IMG/VR virus record: IMGVR_UViG_3300047363_000004 | Span: 1-30,068 of that record | DNA: 30,068 bases | Strand: one strand, 5' to 3' | Origin: a virus | In this document: piece by piece, positions 2,252-30,068 of the stretch | Layout: each line of letters begins with the position of its first letter | Numbering within the stretch: the stretch's first letter is position 1 | Translations under genes and position numbers: made by a program | The notes under the pieces: generated by a model | What the model was told of the DNA's origin: nothing | What the model saw: only the letters and a program-made list of their open reading frames with translations | The model's database searches: none

Positions 2252-2466
2252 GCTCTCTCCCCTTTAATAAACCACTCTGCAATCCGCACCGATTCACCGT
2301 AGCGATTCAGCACTGGCTTCATGGTTGTCAGTATTGTGTGACCTTCATGCCTTAGCTCTGAGATACGAGCCGGGGCTTCGATCACCCCTAACTCATCCCA
2401 TGCGTTCAGTCTGTTCAACACCTTGCCTTGCTTGAGGTACTGAAGTACCCGATCTTTCTGACTCAT
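2248..2466 (-). CDS. Small helix-turn-helix protein
   Basis: This 72-residue protein matches the pattern of the short phage and prophage helix-turn-helix family typified by Pfam HTH_39. MSQKDRVLQYLKQGK opens into a first helix. NRLNAWDELGVIEAPARISELRHEGH forms the HTH with recognition helix, and a small wing with NRYGESVRIAEW follows. It overlaps its neighbours on both sides by 4 nt (ATGA junctions), so the three genes are translationally coupled. It is a likely DNA-binding regulator of early transcription. Its target is unknown, but the palindromes at 4101-4135 and 28658-28670 are candidates. Confidence 0.75.
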   Translation of the reverse strand: MSQKDRVLQYLKQGKVLNRLNAWDELGVIEAPARISELRHEGHTILTTMKPVLNRYGESVRIAEWFIKGERA

Positions 2467-2684
2467 GCTTTCTCCCTATATGGCAAGTCAAGAAACGATT
2501 CGAAGTCCATATCGAACCGCTCTGCAAAATCCACTGTGCGGCTCAAGGTTGCGTCCTTGCTCTTGCGCCATCTGTGGATTGTCATTTCAGTTACATCAAA
2601 GTCCCGCGCCAGTTGTTTATTACTGACACGAAACTCTTTCTGCGCTGTTCTCAGCGACAGACCAATATCAAAATGGAATGTCAT
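2463..2684 (-). CDS. XRE-like helix-turn-helix regulator
   Basis: With the ATG at 2684 the product is 73 residues. Its central part, VSNKQLARDFDVTEMTIHRWRKSKDATLSRTVDFAERF, reads as a Cro/C1-type HTH: helix 2, a turn at FDVTE, recognition helix MTIHRWRK, then a helix ending at a phenylalanine. An upstream in-frame start at 2750 would lie deep inside the preceding gene. I prefer 2684, which overlaps that gene by 17 nt. It is the best candidate in the genome for a Cro or repressor-type switch protein. No integrase was found, so a full lysogeny circuit is not shown. Confidence 0.65.
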   Translation of the reverse strand: MTFHFDIGLSLRTAQKEFRVSNKQLARDFDVTEMTIHRWRKSKDATLSRTVDFAERFDMDFESFLDLPYREKA

Positions 2685-2931
2685 TAGAGAAATCTTCGCT
2701 TGGCTGAACGGCTTTTCGGGCTTGTTGCATACCCTTGTTGTGCGCCTCATCCTTAGCCGTGGTACTGAGAGACATGAAGACGTTGCCGTTCTTGTCCTTC
2801 TTCAGCCACGCAGACAGCCAAAACTCTGACCCATTGGCGTCGGTGTAGCTCCCTTTGTAGTCCGGGTGCGTTTCCTTTTCTTTGCGGTCGTTCTTAAACA
2901 AGACGCCGCGATTGGTGTTGTCGTACTCCAT
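2668..2931 (-). CDS. Small ssDNA-binding-like protein
   Basis: This 87-residue acidic-tailed protein opens MEYDNTNRGVLFKNDRKEK. It continues with HPDYKGSYTDANGSEFWLSAWLKKDKNGNVFMSLS, a beta-rich segment of a kind common in short phage and prophage proteins. The C-terminus SNDIPF resembles the acidic tip (DIPF) of bacterial single-stranded DNA-binding proteins, which recruits partner proteins. It directly follows the ERF-like annealing gene (1 nt between stop and start). A small SSB-like partner of the annealing protein is therefore reasonable. It is shorter than a classical SSB and the OB fold is inferred, not shown. Confidence 0.7.
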   Translation of the reverse strand: MEYDNTNRGVLFKNDRKEKETHPDYKGSYTDANGSEFWLSAWLKKDKNGNVFMSLSTTAKDEAHNKGMQQARKAVQPSEDFSNDIPF

Positions 2932-4100: not shown

Positions 4101-4114
4101 GTTCCACATGGAAC
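4101..4114. promoter_or_regulatory. Palindrome in early leader
   Basis: GTTCCA-CA-TGGAAC is a perfect 6-bp inverted repeat with a 2-bp centre. It lies immediately downstream of the putative early transcription start and abuts a second palindrome. It is a candidate operator for one of the phage HTH proteins. Confidence 0.45.
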
Positions 4115-4135
4115 AGATAACACTTTACGTTATCT
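4115..4135. promoter_or_regulatory. 21-bp palindromic operator candidate
   Basis: AGATAAC and GTTATCT form perfect 7-bp arms around a 7-bp spacer ACTTTAC. On the minus strand the candidate -10 hexamer occupies the spacer, so a bound dimer would block RNA polymerase. The size and symmetry suit a phage repressor or Cro-like dimer. Confidence 0.55.
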
Positions 4136-4150
4136 TTAAGGGGAGTGCAA
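4122..4150 (-). promoter_or_regulatory. Candidate early promoter
   Basis: On the minus strand TTGCAC (4150-4145) and TAAAGT (4127-4122) are separated by 17 bp. That would start transcription near 4115, just upstream of the first early gene. Both hexamers are weak matches to the sigma-70 consensus, so the promoter may need activation. The support is mainly position and the overlapping palindrome. Confidence 0.3.
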
Positions 4151-4163
4151 CATTATTTGTTAT

Positions 4164-9021: not shown

Positions 9022-11223
9022 TTACGGCTCAGTTGCCAAAATTTGTGCTGCACCAGTACCAAAACGAACCATCAATTGCGTTTTCCCGGCACCATTGTCT
9101 TTAAGGTAAAGTCGGGCTTGATTTGCCGCTGGATTTGCTGGGTCAGCCGAAACTTCTCCAAGAATACGAACAACAGCCGCACCGTTTTCTTCTTCAAATT
9201 GCATTCGGTTTGTGCCAGCAAATGCAAAAACATGATCTGCCGTTGAAGATGGGACGCCATAAATCCAGCTATCAGTTGACGCGCTTCTGATCTGATAATT
9301 GGCAGATGTTGTCCCGGCATTGTTAACCGATCTCAAACCAGAGGAATTTTTTAAAACAACATCACTATCAGTGGCACCTGTTTGCACATTATGCCCAACC
9401 AACATAAAGTTTTTTTCATCATTTCTAATTTGAATTAGCTTGGCAGTTGAGTTTGTTTCGCCAGCTGTATTGGCAGAAAATGTTGCTCCAATAGCTGTAA
9501 TTGCATCGCCAGAGGCGGCATTGATGCCAAAGCCAGTGGTTGTTTGAATTTTGCCGCCAATGATTGTGATACCTTGTCCAGCAGAATAAATCCCATCGCC
9601 AGCGGTCGGGCCAATGCCACAACCAATAATCGTTACGCCAAAATTTGATGATGTTATATGAATGCCATCATCACCAGCGCCTTCAGCGCCACATCCAGTG
9701 AATGAAATGGACTGATTATCTCTTGTTGCTCCATCCAAATAATACGTGTGACGTGTGGAAGAATCTGATCCACAATTTACAAGCGCACTATAAGACATCC
9801 CAGATATTGAATAATTGTCTTGGCCACATTCTTTTACAAAACAATTACTAAGAGTTACGGATGTCCCACCGCCAACAGCGCTTGGCTCTAATCGGATGCC
9901 ATCTCTTGTGCAATCTTCAATAACAACTTGCTCAATAGTCGATGTTTGAAGCCTAATTGCCCTAATACCATCTTGGAATCCTTTAATGCTAACTTGCTTA
10001 ATAAGAACTCCGGCAACAGTACCATCATCACTTACTATGCCATCACCGTTTCTTTCGAGATAAATACCAGCGCCACTTGTCCGTGATCCAGACGTATCTC
10101 GAATGGATATATTCTGAACAACTGTCTGGCTTGCACTCGCAATGTTGAATACATTAAAACCATCGGTTGCAACAATAAATAAAGAAGCGTGTTCAGACGT
10201 TGCAATTACACCGTCTTTATTCCAAGGGCCATAACCTTCGCCCTCAAAGATTATTGCTGGTGCGCCATACCAAGACGCAAGATCAATGGTTGAAGAAACA
10301 AGATATTTACCTGTAGGTACAAAAACCTTTCCGCCACTAGCGGCAACAACAGCATCAACAGCCGCCTGAATCGCCGCAGTATCATCAGTCACGCCATCGC
10401 CAACAGCACCAAAGTCCTTGACGCTAACGCTCTCTCGTAGCTTGGTCTGTACTGTGGTCTGTACTGCGCCAGTTCCGGCGGGTGTGTAAGTAACATTAGC
10501 GGCGTCAGTAGCAACAAGATCACTTACTTTGTAACTAACAACCTCAATACTTGCGTTAGTTGGTGGCGCTTCTGTAAATGTCAGAGCTGTGCCGCTTACG
10601 CTATAAGTGCCCTCTTCCTGATATACGCCGTCAATGTAGATGACGACAGCCGCCGCAGAGCCGGGGTCCGCCGCCAGAGTGAATACAGTTGTTGAGCCAT
10701 TACCTGTGAACTGTTGACGTACAATGATCGACGGGCTGAGTGCGCTTGATAGTGGCGACGTGCTTACCGCGCCAGTTGAATCAAAGGTCAAGAAGCTATC
10801 AGTACGATCAGCCGCCTCGGGTAGCTCCATCGAGATAGAGTCAGAGTCGGTAATAGGCTTGCGGATAGACTGAGAGAATGCACGGTTAGTCTGTTCGCCT
10901 GCTAACCAGAGATTATCGAAGTCGCTGTTAACCTCAGAGGCTAGGAAGTCACCAGAGTTTGTATAGTTCTGGGTTCGCGAGTAAGGCATATCCCGGTACA
11001 GGGTCAGAATGTCGCCTGTAGTCGCGCCAACGGTAAGGGTTACATTGCCACCACTATCATTGCCCACGTTCGACACAGTGTAGTCTGTGCCCTCTGAGAG
11101 GGTAGTACCGTTCTTTAGGACGACAACATCGTCCTTGTCTACGATCTCGAACGTATACGCAAAGACCGTCTGACCAGAAGTCGCGGTATATTGGTTACGG
11201 CTTGTATTGTCTGCTACTGTCAT
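9022..11223 (-). CDS. Tail fibre/spike with T7-gp17-like N-terminus and beta-helix body
   Basis: This is a 733-residue protein. Residues 1 to about 130 match the T7 tail-fibre N-terminal domain that docks on the podovirus tail (TATSGQTVFAYTFEI, GDILTLYRDMPYSRTQNY, FDNLWLAGEQTNRAFSQSIR). A second beta domain follows (FTGNGSTTVFTLAAD). A pectate-lyase-type beta-helix starts at VKDFGAVGDGVTDDTAAIQAAV (about 272) and runs for most of the rest. It should be the main adaptor and receptor-binding spike. The gene begins in a 4-nt overlap with the large ejection protein. GC content drops from the beta-helix start onward (below about 10400), which suggests the receptor-binding part was exchanged onto a resident adaptor. 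Confidence 0.85.
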   Translation of the reverse strand: MTVADNTSRNQYTATSGQTVFAYTFEIVDKDDVVVLKNGTTLSEGTDYTVSNVGNDSGGNVTLTVGATTGDILTLYRDMPYSRTQNYTNSGDFLASEVNSDFDNLWLAGEQTNRAFSQSIRKPITDSDSISMELPEAADRTDSFLTFDSTGAVSTSPLSSALSPSIIVRQQFTGNGSTTVFTLAADPGSAAAVVIYIDGVYQEEGTYSVSGTALTFTEAPPTNASIEVVSYKVSDLVATDAANVTYTPAGTGAVQTTVQTKLRESVSVKDFGAVGDGVTDDTAAIQAAVDAVVAASGGKVFVPTGKYLVSSTIDLASWYGAPAIIFEGEGYGPWNKDGVIATSEHASLFIVATDGFNVFNIASASQTVVQNISIRDTSGSRTSGAGIYLERNGDGIVSDDGTVAGVLIKQVSIKGFQDGIRAIRLQTSTIEQVVIEDCTRDGIRLEPSAVGGGTSVTLSNCFVKECGQDNYSISGMSYSALVNCGSDSSTRHTYYLDGATRDNQSISFTGCGAEGAGDDGIHITSSNFGVTIIGCGIGPTAGDGIYSAGQGITIIGGKIQTTTGFGINAASGDAITAIGATFSANTAGETNSTAKLIQIRNDEKNFMLVGHNVQTGATDSDVVLKNSSGLRSVNNAGTTSANYQIRSASTDSWIYGVPSSTADHVFAFAGTNRMQFEEENGAAVVRILGEVSADPANPAANQARLYLKDNGAGKTQLMVRFGTGAAQILATEP

Positions 11224-28450: not shown

Positions 28451-28645
28451 TCAATGAGCCGGGTAGTATTTCGCCATACCTAGCGCTCGTGCATTCTCTA
28501 GCTTACTAACTGCACAAAGATCGAGATACTCGGACTCCGTGAGTCCTTTCAAACGCCCGATGAGTACACATACCTTATCGAGGTTCTCAATGTGCTTTTC
28601 GCCGTTACGAGTGCAGAACATGGCTCGCTTCACTGTAGTACACAT
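28451..28645 (-). CDS. First late-operon small protein, unknown function
   Basis: From the ATG at 28645 the product is 64 residues: MCTTVKRAMFCTRNGEKHIENLDKVCVLIGRLKGL, then TESEYLDLCAVSKLENARALGMAKYYPAH. There are four cysteines, but no CxxC zinc pattern. A TTG further upstream (28678) would extend it across the promoter and operator, which I reject. The ATG has no ribosome-binding site but falls exactly where transcription should begin after the TATACT box, so the mRNA is probably leaderless. The function is unknown. The divergent position from the sigma-like gene suggests an early regulatory or host-directed role. Confidence 0.6.
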   Translation of the reverse strand: MCTTVKRAMFCTRNGEKHIENLDKVCVLIGRLKGLTESEYLDLCAVSKLENARALGMAKYYPAH

Positions 28646-28651
28646 GCCATT

Positions 28652-28680
28652 AGTATAACACAATTTGTGTATTCGCAACT
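28652..28680 (-). promoter_or_regulatory. Leftward late-operon promoter
   Basis: On the minus strand TATACT (28657-28652) is a strong -10 box. A TTGCGA (-35-like) ends 15 bp upstream, or GTTGCG at 16 bp. The predicted start is about 28645, the A of the first ATG. The spacer contains the palindrome 28658-28670. Confidence 0.55.
28658..28670. promoter_or_regulatory. Palindromic operator in the divergent promoter region
   Basis: ACACAA-T-TTGTGT is a perfect 6-bp inverted repeat with a single central base. It lies in the spacer of the leftward promoter, and its right arm coincides with the -35 of the rightward promoter. A dimeric regulator bound here could control both directions. Candidates are the phage HTH proteins or the divergently encoded sigma-like protein. 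Confidence 0.6.
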
Positions 28681-28694
28681 ATTTTTGTTACTAT
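28665..28694 (+). promoter_or_regulatory. Rightward promoter of the lone plus-strand gene
   Basis: TTGTGT (28665-28670) and TACTAT (28689-28694) are separated by 18 bp, with a start near 28701. A GGGGGG ribosome-binding stretch follows before the ATG at 28717. The hexamers are moderate matches to sigma-70 promoters. Confidence 0.4.
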
Positions 28695-28716
28695 GTAGGA
28701 AAACAAGGGGGGAACA

Positions 28717-28920
28717 ATGACAAGAGCAATTAACGACGACTACCTAATGACTCATCAAGAGATTGCCGATGAGTTAGGTATCACCCGGAGTAGGGTGGCT
28801 CAGTTAGAAAAGAGCGCCCTGACTAAGCTCCGGGATCGCTTCATTCTTAGGCAGTATTATCTGGACTATGTTAGTTCCAGCTCTGAATCTCGTAATCAGG
28901 ATCAAGTTCCTTACGCCTGA
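28717..28920 (+). CDS. Sigma-70 region-4-like DNA-binding protein (only rightward gene)
   Basis: This 67-residue protein is almost only a sigma region 4-like HTH. LMTHQEIADELGITRSRVAQLEKSALTKLRDRF lines up with the sigma-70 pattern (T..EIA..LG.TR.RV.QIE..AL.KLR). In full sigma factors this part binds the -35 element and the RNA polymerase flap. A standalone region 4 can recruit or redirect the host polymerase or act as an anti-sigma-like co-factor. It has a strong ribosome-binding site (AAGGGGGGAA). It is the only gene on the plus strand, divergent from the late operon across a palindrome. Its 3' end overlaps the HNH gene on the other strand by 50 nt. This makes it the best candidate for a switch regulator of the genome. 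Confidence 0.8.
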   Translation: MTRAINDDYLMTHQEIADELGITRSRVAQLEKSALTKLRDRFILRQYYLDYVSSSSESRNQDQVPYA

Positions 28921-29257
28921 CTTCATCGCGGTAGTGATCGCCAATATCCTTTCTCAACAGCTTGTTGGTCTTGTATATCTCATTGCGATCCATCCGCAAC
29001 TTATCCATGTGTTCTTCGCCCAGTAGGTCATTCAGCCAGTCGTGGAATGCTATCGGATTGGACGTGAAGTAACGGTGGCAGGCATGGCACAGGGCGGTAG
29101 CGTTTGACATAGCCCAGCGCACTCGCTTGTTGGCTCTGCCGTAAATATGGGCGCACTCTAACCGATCAGTCTTGTGGCAGTGTAAGCACTTCCCGTCGCG
29201 TAACCTTACCGCCTTTGAAAACCATATATCACACGACTCGCGCTTGATTGTTCCCAT
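28871..29257 (-). CDS. HNH/NinG-like nuclease
   Basis: From the ATG at 29257 (AGGGAAGACG just upstream) the product is 128 residues. It contains DGKCLHCHKTDRLECAHIYGRANKRVRWAMSNATALCHACHRYFTSNPIAFHDWLNDLLG. That is a CxxC, a histidine (AHI), an Asn region and a CxxCH, which make up a zinc-binding HNH-type nuclease core as in NinG/Rap-like and HNH endonuclease proteins. It probably resolves or nicks DNA in recombination or near packaging. It is the last gene of the early leftward operon. Its last 50 nt lie over the 3' end of the rightward gene, and I see no terminator after it. Confidence 0.8.
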   Translation of the reverse strand: MGTIKRESCDIWFSKAVRLRDGKCLHCHKTDRLECAHIYGRANKRVRWAMSNATALCHACHRYFTSNPIAFHDWLNDLLGEEHMDKLRMDRNEIYKTNKLLRKDIGDHYRDEVRRKELDPDYEIQSWN

Positions 29258-29396
29258 CGTCTTCCCTCGTGTATTGACGCTCTCGGAGTATAGCCTTCTC
29301 GCTGTTCCCGCAGTCACATGACCAGCCTTCCAGCTTGTGAGGGTATTCGCTCTTAAACTGGGGGACCATGATCTTGAAGCACTCAGTGCACTTCAT
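29229..29396 (-). CDS. Zinc-ribbon small protein
   Basis: From the ATG at 29396 the product is 55 residues. MKCTECFKIMVPQFKSEYPHKLEGWSCDCGNSEKAIL has a CxxC and a CxC spaced by about 22 residues, so it should bind one zinc. It overlaps the end of the upstream gene by 14 nt and runs into the HNH gene. Small zinc ribbons in phage early operons may bind DNA or partner proteins. I do not recognise a named family. Confidence 0.6.
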   Translation of the reverse strand: MKCTECFKIMVPQFKSEYPHKLEGWSCDCGNSEKAILRERQYTREDDGNNQARVV

Positions 29397-29628: not shown

Positions 29629-30068
29629 GCCTTAACCTCATCAATGCCAACTTTGAATCGACTGTGCTCGCCATAGCTCTTATCGAGTATAACGCACGAC
29701 ATGGACCTTGCGGACCCATAGCCCGAAGCTGAATGGTACGCATCCGGTGGACATAACACGCCAAATGATTCGAGGTGCAAGCCGCCCATCTCAGTCACAG
29801 TCCGGTGGTGAATATGACCGTGATACAAGTATCGGTGTTTAGTCCGTCCCCATTCCTCTGCGTAGTCTCTTGTCACAGCTTCATAAAGCGCCTGAGTCTT
29901 TACCCGGTCCCCGTGGTGCATAACCACAAGAGTCTTGCCCCATTCGAAATGTATCCACTTGGAGAAGTTGTCGAACACTTTCACCCGTGGTTCATCATGG
30001 AAGTACAGGCGCATCATTTCGTTTAGCCAGAGGCTCGCATCGGGATCATGGTTACCCCTTACGTTGAT
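29625..30068 (-). CDS. HTH-calcineurin-like metallophosphoesterase, C-terminal part (continues from position 1)
   Basis: This is the second part of the gene that begins at 850 and crosses the circle joint. Bases 29942-30068 repeat positions 1-127, so the unique part ends at 29941. It supplies the last metal ligands of the fold: VVMHHGDRVK (His and Asp) and the YHGHIHH segment (GHxH). The region around HHRTVTEMGGLHLESFGVL is typical of phage metallophosphoesterases. With both parts the enzyme has the complete metal site, so it should be active. The reading frame stays open through the joint, which confirms the circular join. Confidence 0.85.
   Translation of the reverse strand: MNVRGNHDPDASLWLNEMMRLYFHDEPRVKVFDNFSKWIHFEWGKTLVVMHHGDRVKTQALYEAVTRDYAEEWGRTKHRYLYHGHIHHRTVTEMGGLHLESFGVLCPPDAYHSASGYGSARSMSCVILDKSYGEHSRFKVGIDEVKA
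29942..30068. repeat. Right copy of 127-bp direct terminal repeat
   Basis: Identical to 1-127 at an offset of 29,941. See the left copy for the interpretation: this marks a circular contig, with the repeat probably produced by the assembler. Confidence 0.95.

Follow-up and report, generated by a model that had tools for sequence, protein, structure and literature searches.

The window (the whole 30,068-nucleotide stretch of viral DNA analysed here) contains one gene called on its rightward strand, a 67-codon open reading frame that we refer to as the regulator gene. Positions 1–127 of the window are identical to positions 29942–30068, an exact 127-bp end overlap that makes the genome complete at about 29,941 bp (the record is classed as linear although the genome closes). 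From 28645 down to 4164 lie the leftward terminase, portal, tail and lysis genes; a second leftward block, from about 4107 across the cut (which is spanned by a metallophosphoesterase-like gene) to 28871, holds the genes for replication and recombination. Because the window closes on itself through the end overlap, the junction between the early and late genes is real; a first-pass annotation had placed a gene of only 67 codons at the point where the late unit starts and the early unit ends, and both its length and its position hold. The features discussed below are collected in Table 1.

Table 1. Genes and candidate regulatory elements of the window (strand: +, rightward; −, leftward;., none assigned)
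Feature	Position	Strand	Remarks
Second HTH gene (rival regulator), early unit	2463..2750	−	95 aa; HTH_23 E 0.0015, below cut-off
Leader hairpin GTTCC-ATGT-GGAAC	4101..4114	−	ahead of first early gene
Dyad AGATAAC-N7-GTTATCT on early −10	4115..4135	.	contains AACACTTTACGTT (4119–4131)
Putative early promoter TTGCAC-17-TAAAGT	4122..4150	−	read from sequence; uncalled by promoter scan
Operator-like AACATTATTTGTT at early leftward promoter	4149..4161	.	exact match; adjoins −35 TTGCAC
First late gene	28454..28645	−	MCTTVKRAMFCTRN..., ~64 aa; conserved left border of array
Divergent regulatory region, late unit to regulator	28646..28716	.	array insertion point (empty here); border distance varies
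Putative leftward late promoter	28650..28678	−	−35 TTGCGA (28673–28678), −10 TATACT or TACTAA; read from sequence
Operator-like repeat AACACAATTTGTG	28657..28669	.	1 mismatch to AACA-N5-TGTT; part of dyad 28658–28670
Putative rightward promoter TTGTGT-18-TACTAT	28665..28694	+	read from sequence; below promoter-scan threshold
Second operator-like repeat, leftward, AACAAAAATAGTT	28677..28689	.	1 mismatch; adjoins putative late −35 TTGCGA
Regulator gene	28717..28920	+	67 codons/67 aa; sigma-70 region 4.2-like HTH; conserved end gene of rightward (array) operon
HNH / NinG-like endonuclease, last early gene	28871..29317	−	phrog_5034, 5e-15

The regulator gene begins with an ATG codon, has the purine-rich sequence AAGGGGGG upstream of it, and overlaps the HNH gene tail to tail by 50 bp. 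Every rightward open reading frame of at least 100 codons in the window lies opposite a longer leftward one. The regulator gene is under strong purifying selection: with the window as reference, and over the 49 codons outside the overlap with the antisense HNH gene, 20 of 24 other DNA variants differ by 3–12 synonymous codon changes and by no nonsynonymous change (a single one in one variant), with nonsynonymous sites being 3.5 times as numerous as synonymous ones. The description of the regulator as the only rightward gene is correct for the window and fails as a general trait, since most relatives carry further rightward genes ahead of it. At three related loci (L173, L176 and L178) the regulator and the genes ahead of it run in the same direction as the early and late genes; its lone orientation is therefore not essential, while its location at the boundary of the early and late genes is conserved.

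Portal relatives in cultured phages include Methylophilales phage MEP301 and Pelagibacter phage EXVC031P (32–34% identity), while no near match to 10 kb of the window was found among cultured phages, and a tblastn search of the phage collection returned no close relative of the regulator. Terminase relatives in genome contigs lie within metagenome bins of mixed taxa, which point to no one host, and the regulator has no relative among genome contigs. A tail protein encoded at 9022–11223 of the window carries a pectate-lyase-like beta-helix domain.

The regulator resembles region 4.2 of sigma-70

The Pfam family Sigma70_r4 (PF04545) matches the regulator at 40.4 bits (E 2e-10; cut-off 24.1), whereas generic HTH families reach at most 19 bits. 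The match spans profile positions 21–49 of 50, which is the HTH of region 4.2 without region 4.1. In a phmmer comparison with solved structures, region 4 of RpoH and of SigA rank first. The AlphaFold (AF2) monomer, a moderately confident model (pLDDT 69), has helices at residues 13–20, 24–40 and 42–56 (the last of low confidence) and nothing before residue 13; it thus carries an additional C-terminal helix and tail. The first-pass annotation had made its reading depend on a predicted structure like region 4, and the top-ranked Foldseek matches to the model are indeed chains of sigma region 4, but every E-value exceeds 0.001 and none is significant for a chain as short as this one. The same annotation described the protein as a −35-binding HTH and nothing else; the HTH part of that description agrees with the Pfam score, but the homology covers region 4.2 only and a further helix and tail follow it.

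Region 4.1, which forms part of the beta-flap contact in sigma structures, is missing from all 26 aligned family members, each of which begins about 10 residues ahead of the HTH. At the positions that we take to correspond to the −35 contact residues R584, E585, R588 and Q589 of sigma70, the R584 equivalent is invariant among these 26 proteins, the E585 equivalent is never present, and the other two vary. The 67-residue protein gave no match to region 2, the part of sigma responsible for core binding and −10 recognition. We conclude that the regulator gene is real and, as judged from its sequence, encodes a predicted DNA-binding regulator that is similar to one half of sigma region 4.

In a second subfamily (L031–L075) the regulator gene is found a short way ahead of a 528-aa gene resembling a primase or helicase; these phages are organised differently and do not contain the second HTH gene of the window.

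In related phages the regulator closes an array of exchangeable genes

A scan of IMG/VR identified 79 loci encoding regulator relatives, and a scan with the terminase gave 80 loci, on contigs that are partly shared with the first set. The regulator is present wherever both borders of the region are visible. The first late gene and the MT[HY] motif of the regulator are 101 bp apart in the window and up to 1239 bp apart in relatives (the motif is too strict for L132 and L145, both of which have the regulator by open reading frame listing); the added length is taken up by one to four rightward open reading frames, mostly of 45–95 aa, with the regulator last. In 29 distinct divergent regions, L132 and L145 included, the sigma4-like frame is the last rightward one.

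The genes ahead of the regulator are shuffled extensively. The 39 arrays with cargo listed by our ORF caller display 36 different gene orders drawn from 32 cargo families, almost all of them orphans. Cargo family F1, for example, occurs at position 1, 2 or 3 and beside F2, F3, F6, F8, F9, F13 or F21. These hypervariable cassettes are found in L001–L030 and L085–L178, flanked by the MCTTVKRAMF gene on one side and the sigma4-like gene on the other; a few genomes (L023, L028, L128) have an empty array like that of the window.

Most cassettes share a common joint, GYCGC-RTAA-GCGGCC-YTTA followed by CCAAGGGAG. The majority end in GYCGC-RTAA-GCGGCC-TTTA, then CCAAGGGAGA, then the ATG of the next gene, and the joint forms a hairpin with the stop codon of the cassette in its loop (−12.1 kcal/mol as RNA, z −3.05, for one example). 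The exact pattern occurs at 30 viral loci, some of them among those already collected; the window itself contains no cassette joint. Among the cargo families that were run, DUF7249 is the sole Pfam match above cut-off, and the part of the cargo compared with Pfam, PHROGs and NCBIfam gave no anti-CRISPR match. That the cargo might serve in anti-defence is a guess suggested by the layout.

At two loci, array-like genes also lie at the early-promoter locus beside a lysis gene (L177:6829–7500 and L176:2240–2806). The L176 leader at that locus resembles an array leader, and L176 and L177 may thus have a second cassette site.

An operator-like repeat is found at the predicted array, early and late promoters

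In relatives, the array promoter contains the inverted repeat AACA-N5-TGTT, which overlaps its −35 element. After dereplication at 85% identity, 12 of 16 array promoters, the same ones in which the motif was first noticed, contain an exact copy with varied centres, located before the array leader, as compared to a mean of 0.11 and a maximum of 2 exact sites in 500 dinucleotide shuffles; the copy at the early promoter came to light only afterwards. Three loci (L173, L163 and L122) deviate from the site at the array promoter. Across the window, 17 matches with at most one mismatch are present against 12.9 expected, a number near chance. Four of the 17 (at 4119, 4149, 28657 and 28677) fall within two short intergenic regions that account for 103 of the 30,056 start positions (p ~3e-7, binomial). 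The operator signal is one of placement and not of genome-wide count. In nearly all of the array and early promoters that were read, the register is close to fixed, with the −35 element beginning at operator position 12–13 and the −10 element at about 35–37.

Individual sites are conserved to differing extents. At 28657, AACA-N5-TGT is kept in most relatives but the outer dyad is not. The second late-region repeat is an exact match, AACAATTTATGTT, in L002, L096, L102 and L106, and most relatives have the late promoter site (it is absent from L132, L134 and L145). Relatives retain the site at the early promoter, with a changed centre (TTATT, GTTTA, CTTTA or CTTTT). The arms of the neighbouring dyad on the early −10 element change together (AGATAAC/GTTATCT, AAACATA/TATGTTT, ATAGAC/GTCTAT).

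We assigned the promoters by eye or with a simple score, and a consensus scanner calls none of those in the window; the late promoter block, likewise uncalled by the promoter scan, is conserved in relatives. Array promoters of three relatives (L115, L121 and L127) have a full TTGACA −35 element and a TGn ahead of the −10.

The palindromes listed by the first-pass annotation are present, as the exact dyad ACACAATTTGTGT at 28658–28670 and as GTTCC-acat-GGAAC and AGATAAC-N7-GTTATCT within 4101–4135. As an operator in its own right, the strict 13-bp dyad ACACAA-T-TTGTGT was rejected: relatives do not preserve its symmetry, and the window has a single copy. A second candidate for a shared operator, the perfect palindrome GCAACA-N5-TGTTGC, found 2–3 kb upstream of the regulator in the second subfamily, was also discarded, as it codes for the conserved peptide QQQALLRKW. 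Among the few divergent groups, compensatory changes linking the recognition helix to the operator were not demonstrated.

Possible roles of the regulator

We infer from these arrangements that the regulator, composed of the 4.2 half of sigma-70 region 4 and a C-terminal helix, would bind the AACA-N5-TGTT repeats that overlap the array −35 element, probably as a dimer, that the predicted promoters would be in use, and that the effect of binding would be repression. The array operon would then be expressed in a burst and silenced, in the way that Aca proteins silence anti-CRISPR operons. Through the same repeats, early transcription may be damped and the late unit tuned; given the additional sites at the early promoter and in the late/rightward region, a phage-wide role is plausible. 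The array promoters of L115, L121 and L127 look active unaided, and repression is therefore favoured; where array promoters carry TTGACA and TGn it is the simpler reading. We assign roughly even probability to the proposal that the regulator is an operator-binding, Aca-like protein that closes an exchangeable cassette operon, represses its own array and acts on the early and late promoters. The earlier suggestion of a genome switch protein is strengthened in that repeats lie at the early promoter, the late/rightward region and the array promoter of relatives; the regulator is, however, only presumed to bind them, and the second HTH gene is a rival.

That second gene offers the main competing account, in which the AACA-N5-TGTT sites would be operators of its product, a general phage repressor, and the sigma4-like protein would have a separate role. 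It occurs together with the sites in window-type records and also in more diverged array-bearing records, and it belongs to the early unit that one of the sites governs. Its Pfam HTH matches are weak, however, and it is the sigma4-like gene that is physically tied to the site-bearing array promoter, also in L178, where the array is reversed. We regard this account as possible but on balance unlikely. It is a good deal more improbable that the regulator is a passenger, one further small orphan cassette fixed at the array end by chance; it is similar in size to the cargo genes, but it is found in almost every array, as compared to at most 10 of the 39 listed arrays for any one cargo family, and it is a near-invariant protein whose HTH scores far above the Pfam cut-off.

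A different possibility lies close to the original proposal of host polymerase redirection: by sigma appropriation or class II activation, the regulator would sit at the −35 position and hold or recruit host polymerase at promoters with a poor −35 element. The fold belongs to region 4, the early and late −35 elements are indeed poor (TTGCAC and TTGCGA), and the sites adjoin the −35 in near-fixed register with a centre near −41, a location that could equally serve activation. Several array promoters already carry TTGACA together with TGn before the −10, however, and the putative late promoters differ in their spacing to the −10. Because region 4.1 is missing in 26 of 26 aligned members and the −35-reading residues are only partly kept (the R584 equivalent alone is invariant; those of E585, R588 and Q589 vary), appropriation is less likely, and we consider it quite improbable. 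The same features count against polymerase redirection. The supporting argument that phages of this size without their own polymerase need such a device does not follow either: two 31-kb records, which may be incomplete, encode ~90% identical terminases and give no match to the regulator family or to the second HTH gene (G021 and G022; L142 and L137). A Pfam scan of the long open reading frames of the complete genome (at least 700 aa) detected no single-subunit or phage RNA polymerase; a search of the records with PF00940 found nothing, and its control was silent too. The first-pass annotation thus observed the locus mostly correctly and placed the regulator properly at the early/late junction, but its polymerase redirection is not supported and it missed the cassette array.

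Returning to autorepression of the array, we tentatively extend it to a broader picture, which we think somewhat doubtful as a whole: a hypervariable anti-defence array in uncultured marine podovirus-like phages, in which cassettes of small genes inhibiting host defences would be swapped through their hairpin joints under a new Aca-like repressor that consists of one half of sigma region 4 and whose operator would also be present at the early promoter and in the late region. Many anti-CRISPR genes have been discovered through marker genes of this kind. If the picture is right, the regulator family would be a marker for arrays of small genes (32 cargo families from the relatives of one phage group), and a promoter-reading domain of sigma would have been trimmed and put to new use in a phage regulator that binds operators.

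Comparison with known systems

The regulator family shares with sigma-70 region 4 (PF04545) the region 4.2 HTH, the invariant R584 equivalent and a C-terminal LR tail. It differs from it in having no region 4.1 and variable residues at the other −35 contacts, and in forming small stand-alone proteins (~58–76 aa) without regions 2 or 3.

The array invites comparison with the mobile regulatory cassettes that Arbiol et al. reportedly described in 2010 for T4-type phages, where shared sequence between small variable genes is thought to promote shuffling. Shared sequence between small variable genes is also found here; unlike those cassettes, however, the array has one promoter and not one per cassette, and most genomes have a single array site. 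In Cluster K mycobacteriophages, start-associated and extended start-associated sequences have been described (PMC3203893). The likeness lies in a conserved element, linked to the ribosome binding site and partly an inverted repeat, before genes of different families. In contrast to Cluster K, the joint described here is a GC hairpin with the stop codon of the preceding gene in its loop, and it belongs to one operon with a fixed last gene in small podovirus-like genomes.

With sigma appropriation by MotA and AsiA of phage T4 (PMC6755090), the resemblance is that a phage protein is proposed to act at the −35 element of the phage's own promoters; the difference is that the regulator is itself region 4.2-like.

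The parallel in layout that we draw is with acr–aca operons, in which an HTH gene lies downstream, an inverted repeat lies inside the core promoter, Aca represses its own promoter, and some promoters contain two related repeats (PMC9410906). No Aca protein was found for the regulator in the PDB sequence search or among the Foldseek matches listed. As in those operons, relatives of the window have a small HTH gene that follows a set of exchangeable small genes (the array of the window being empty) and, in the core promoter of that operon, an inverted repeat; unlike Aca proteins, the regulator has an HTH resembling sigma region 4.2, and its repeat is shared with other promoters of the phage.
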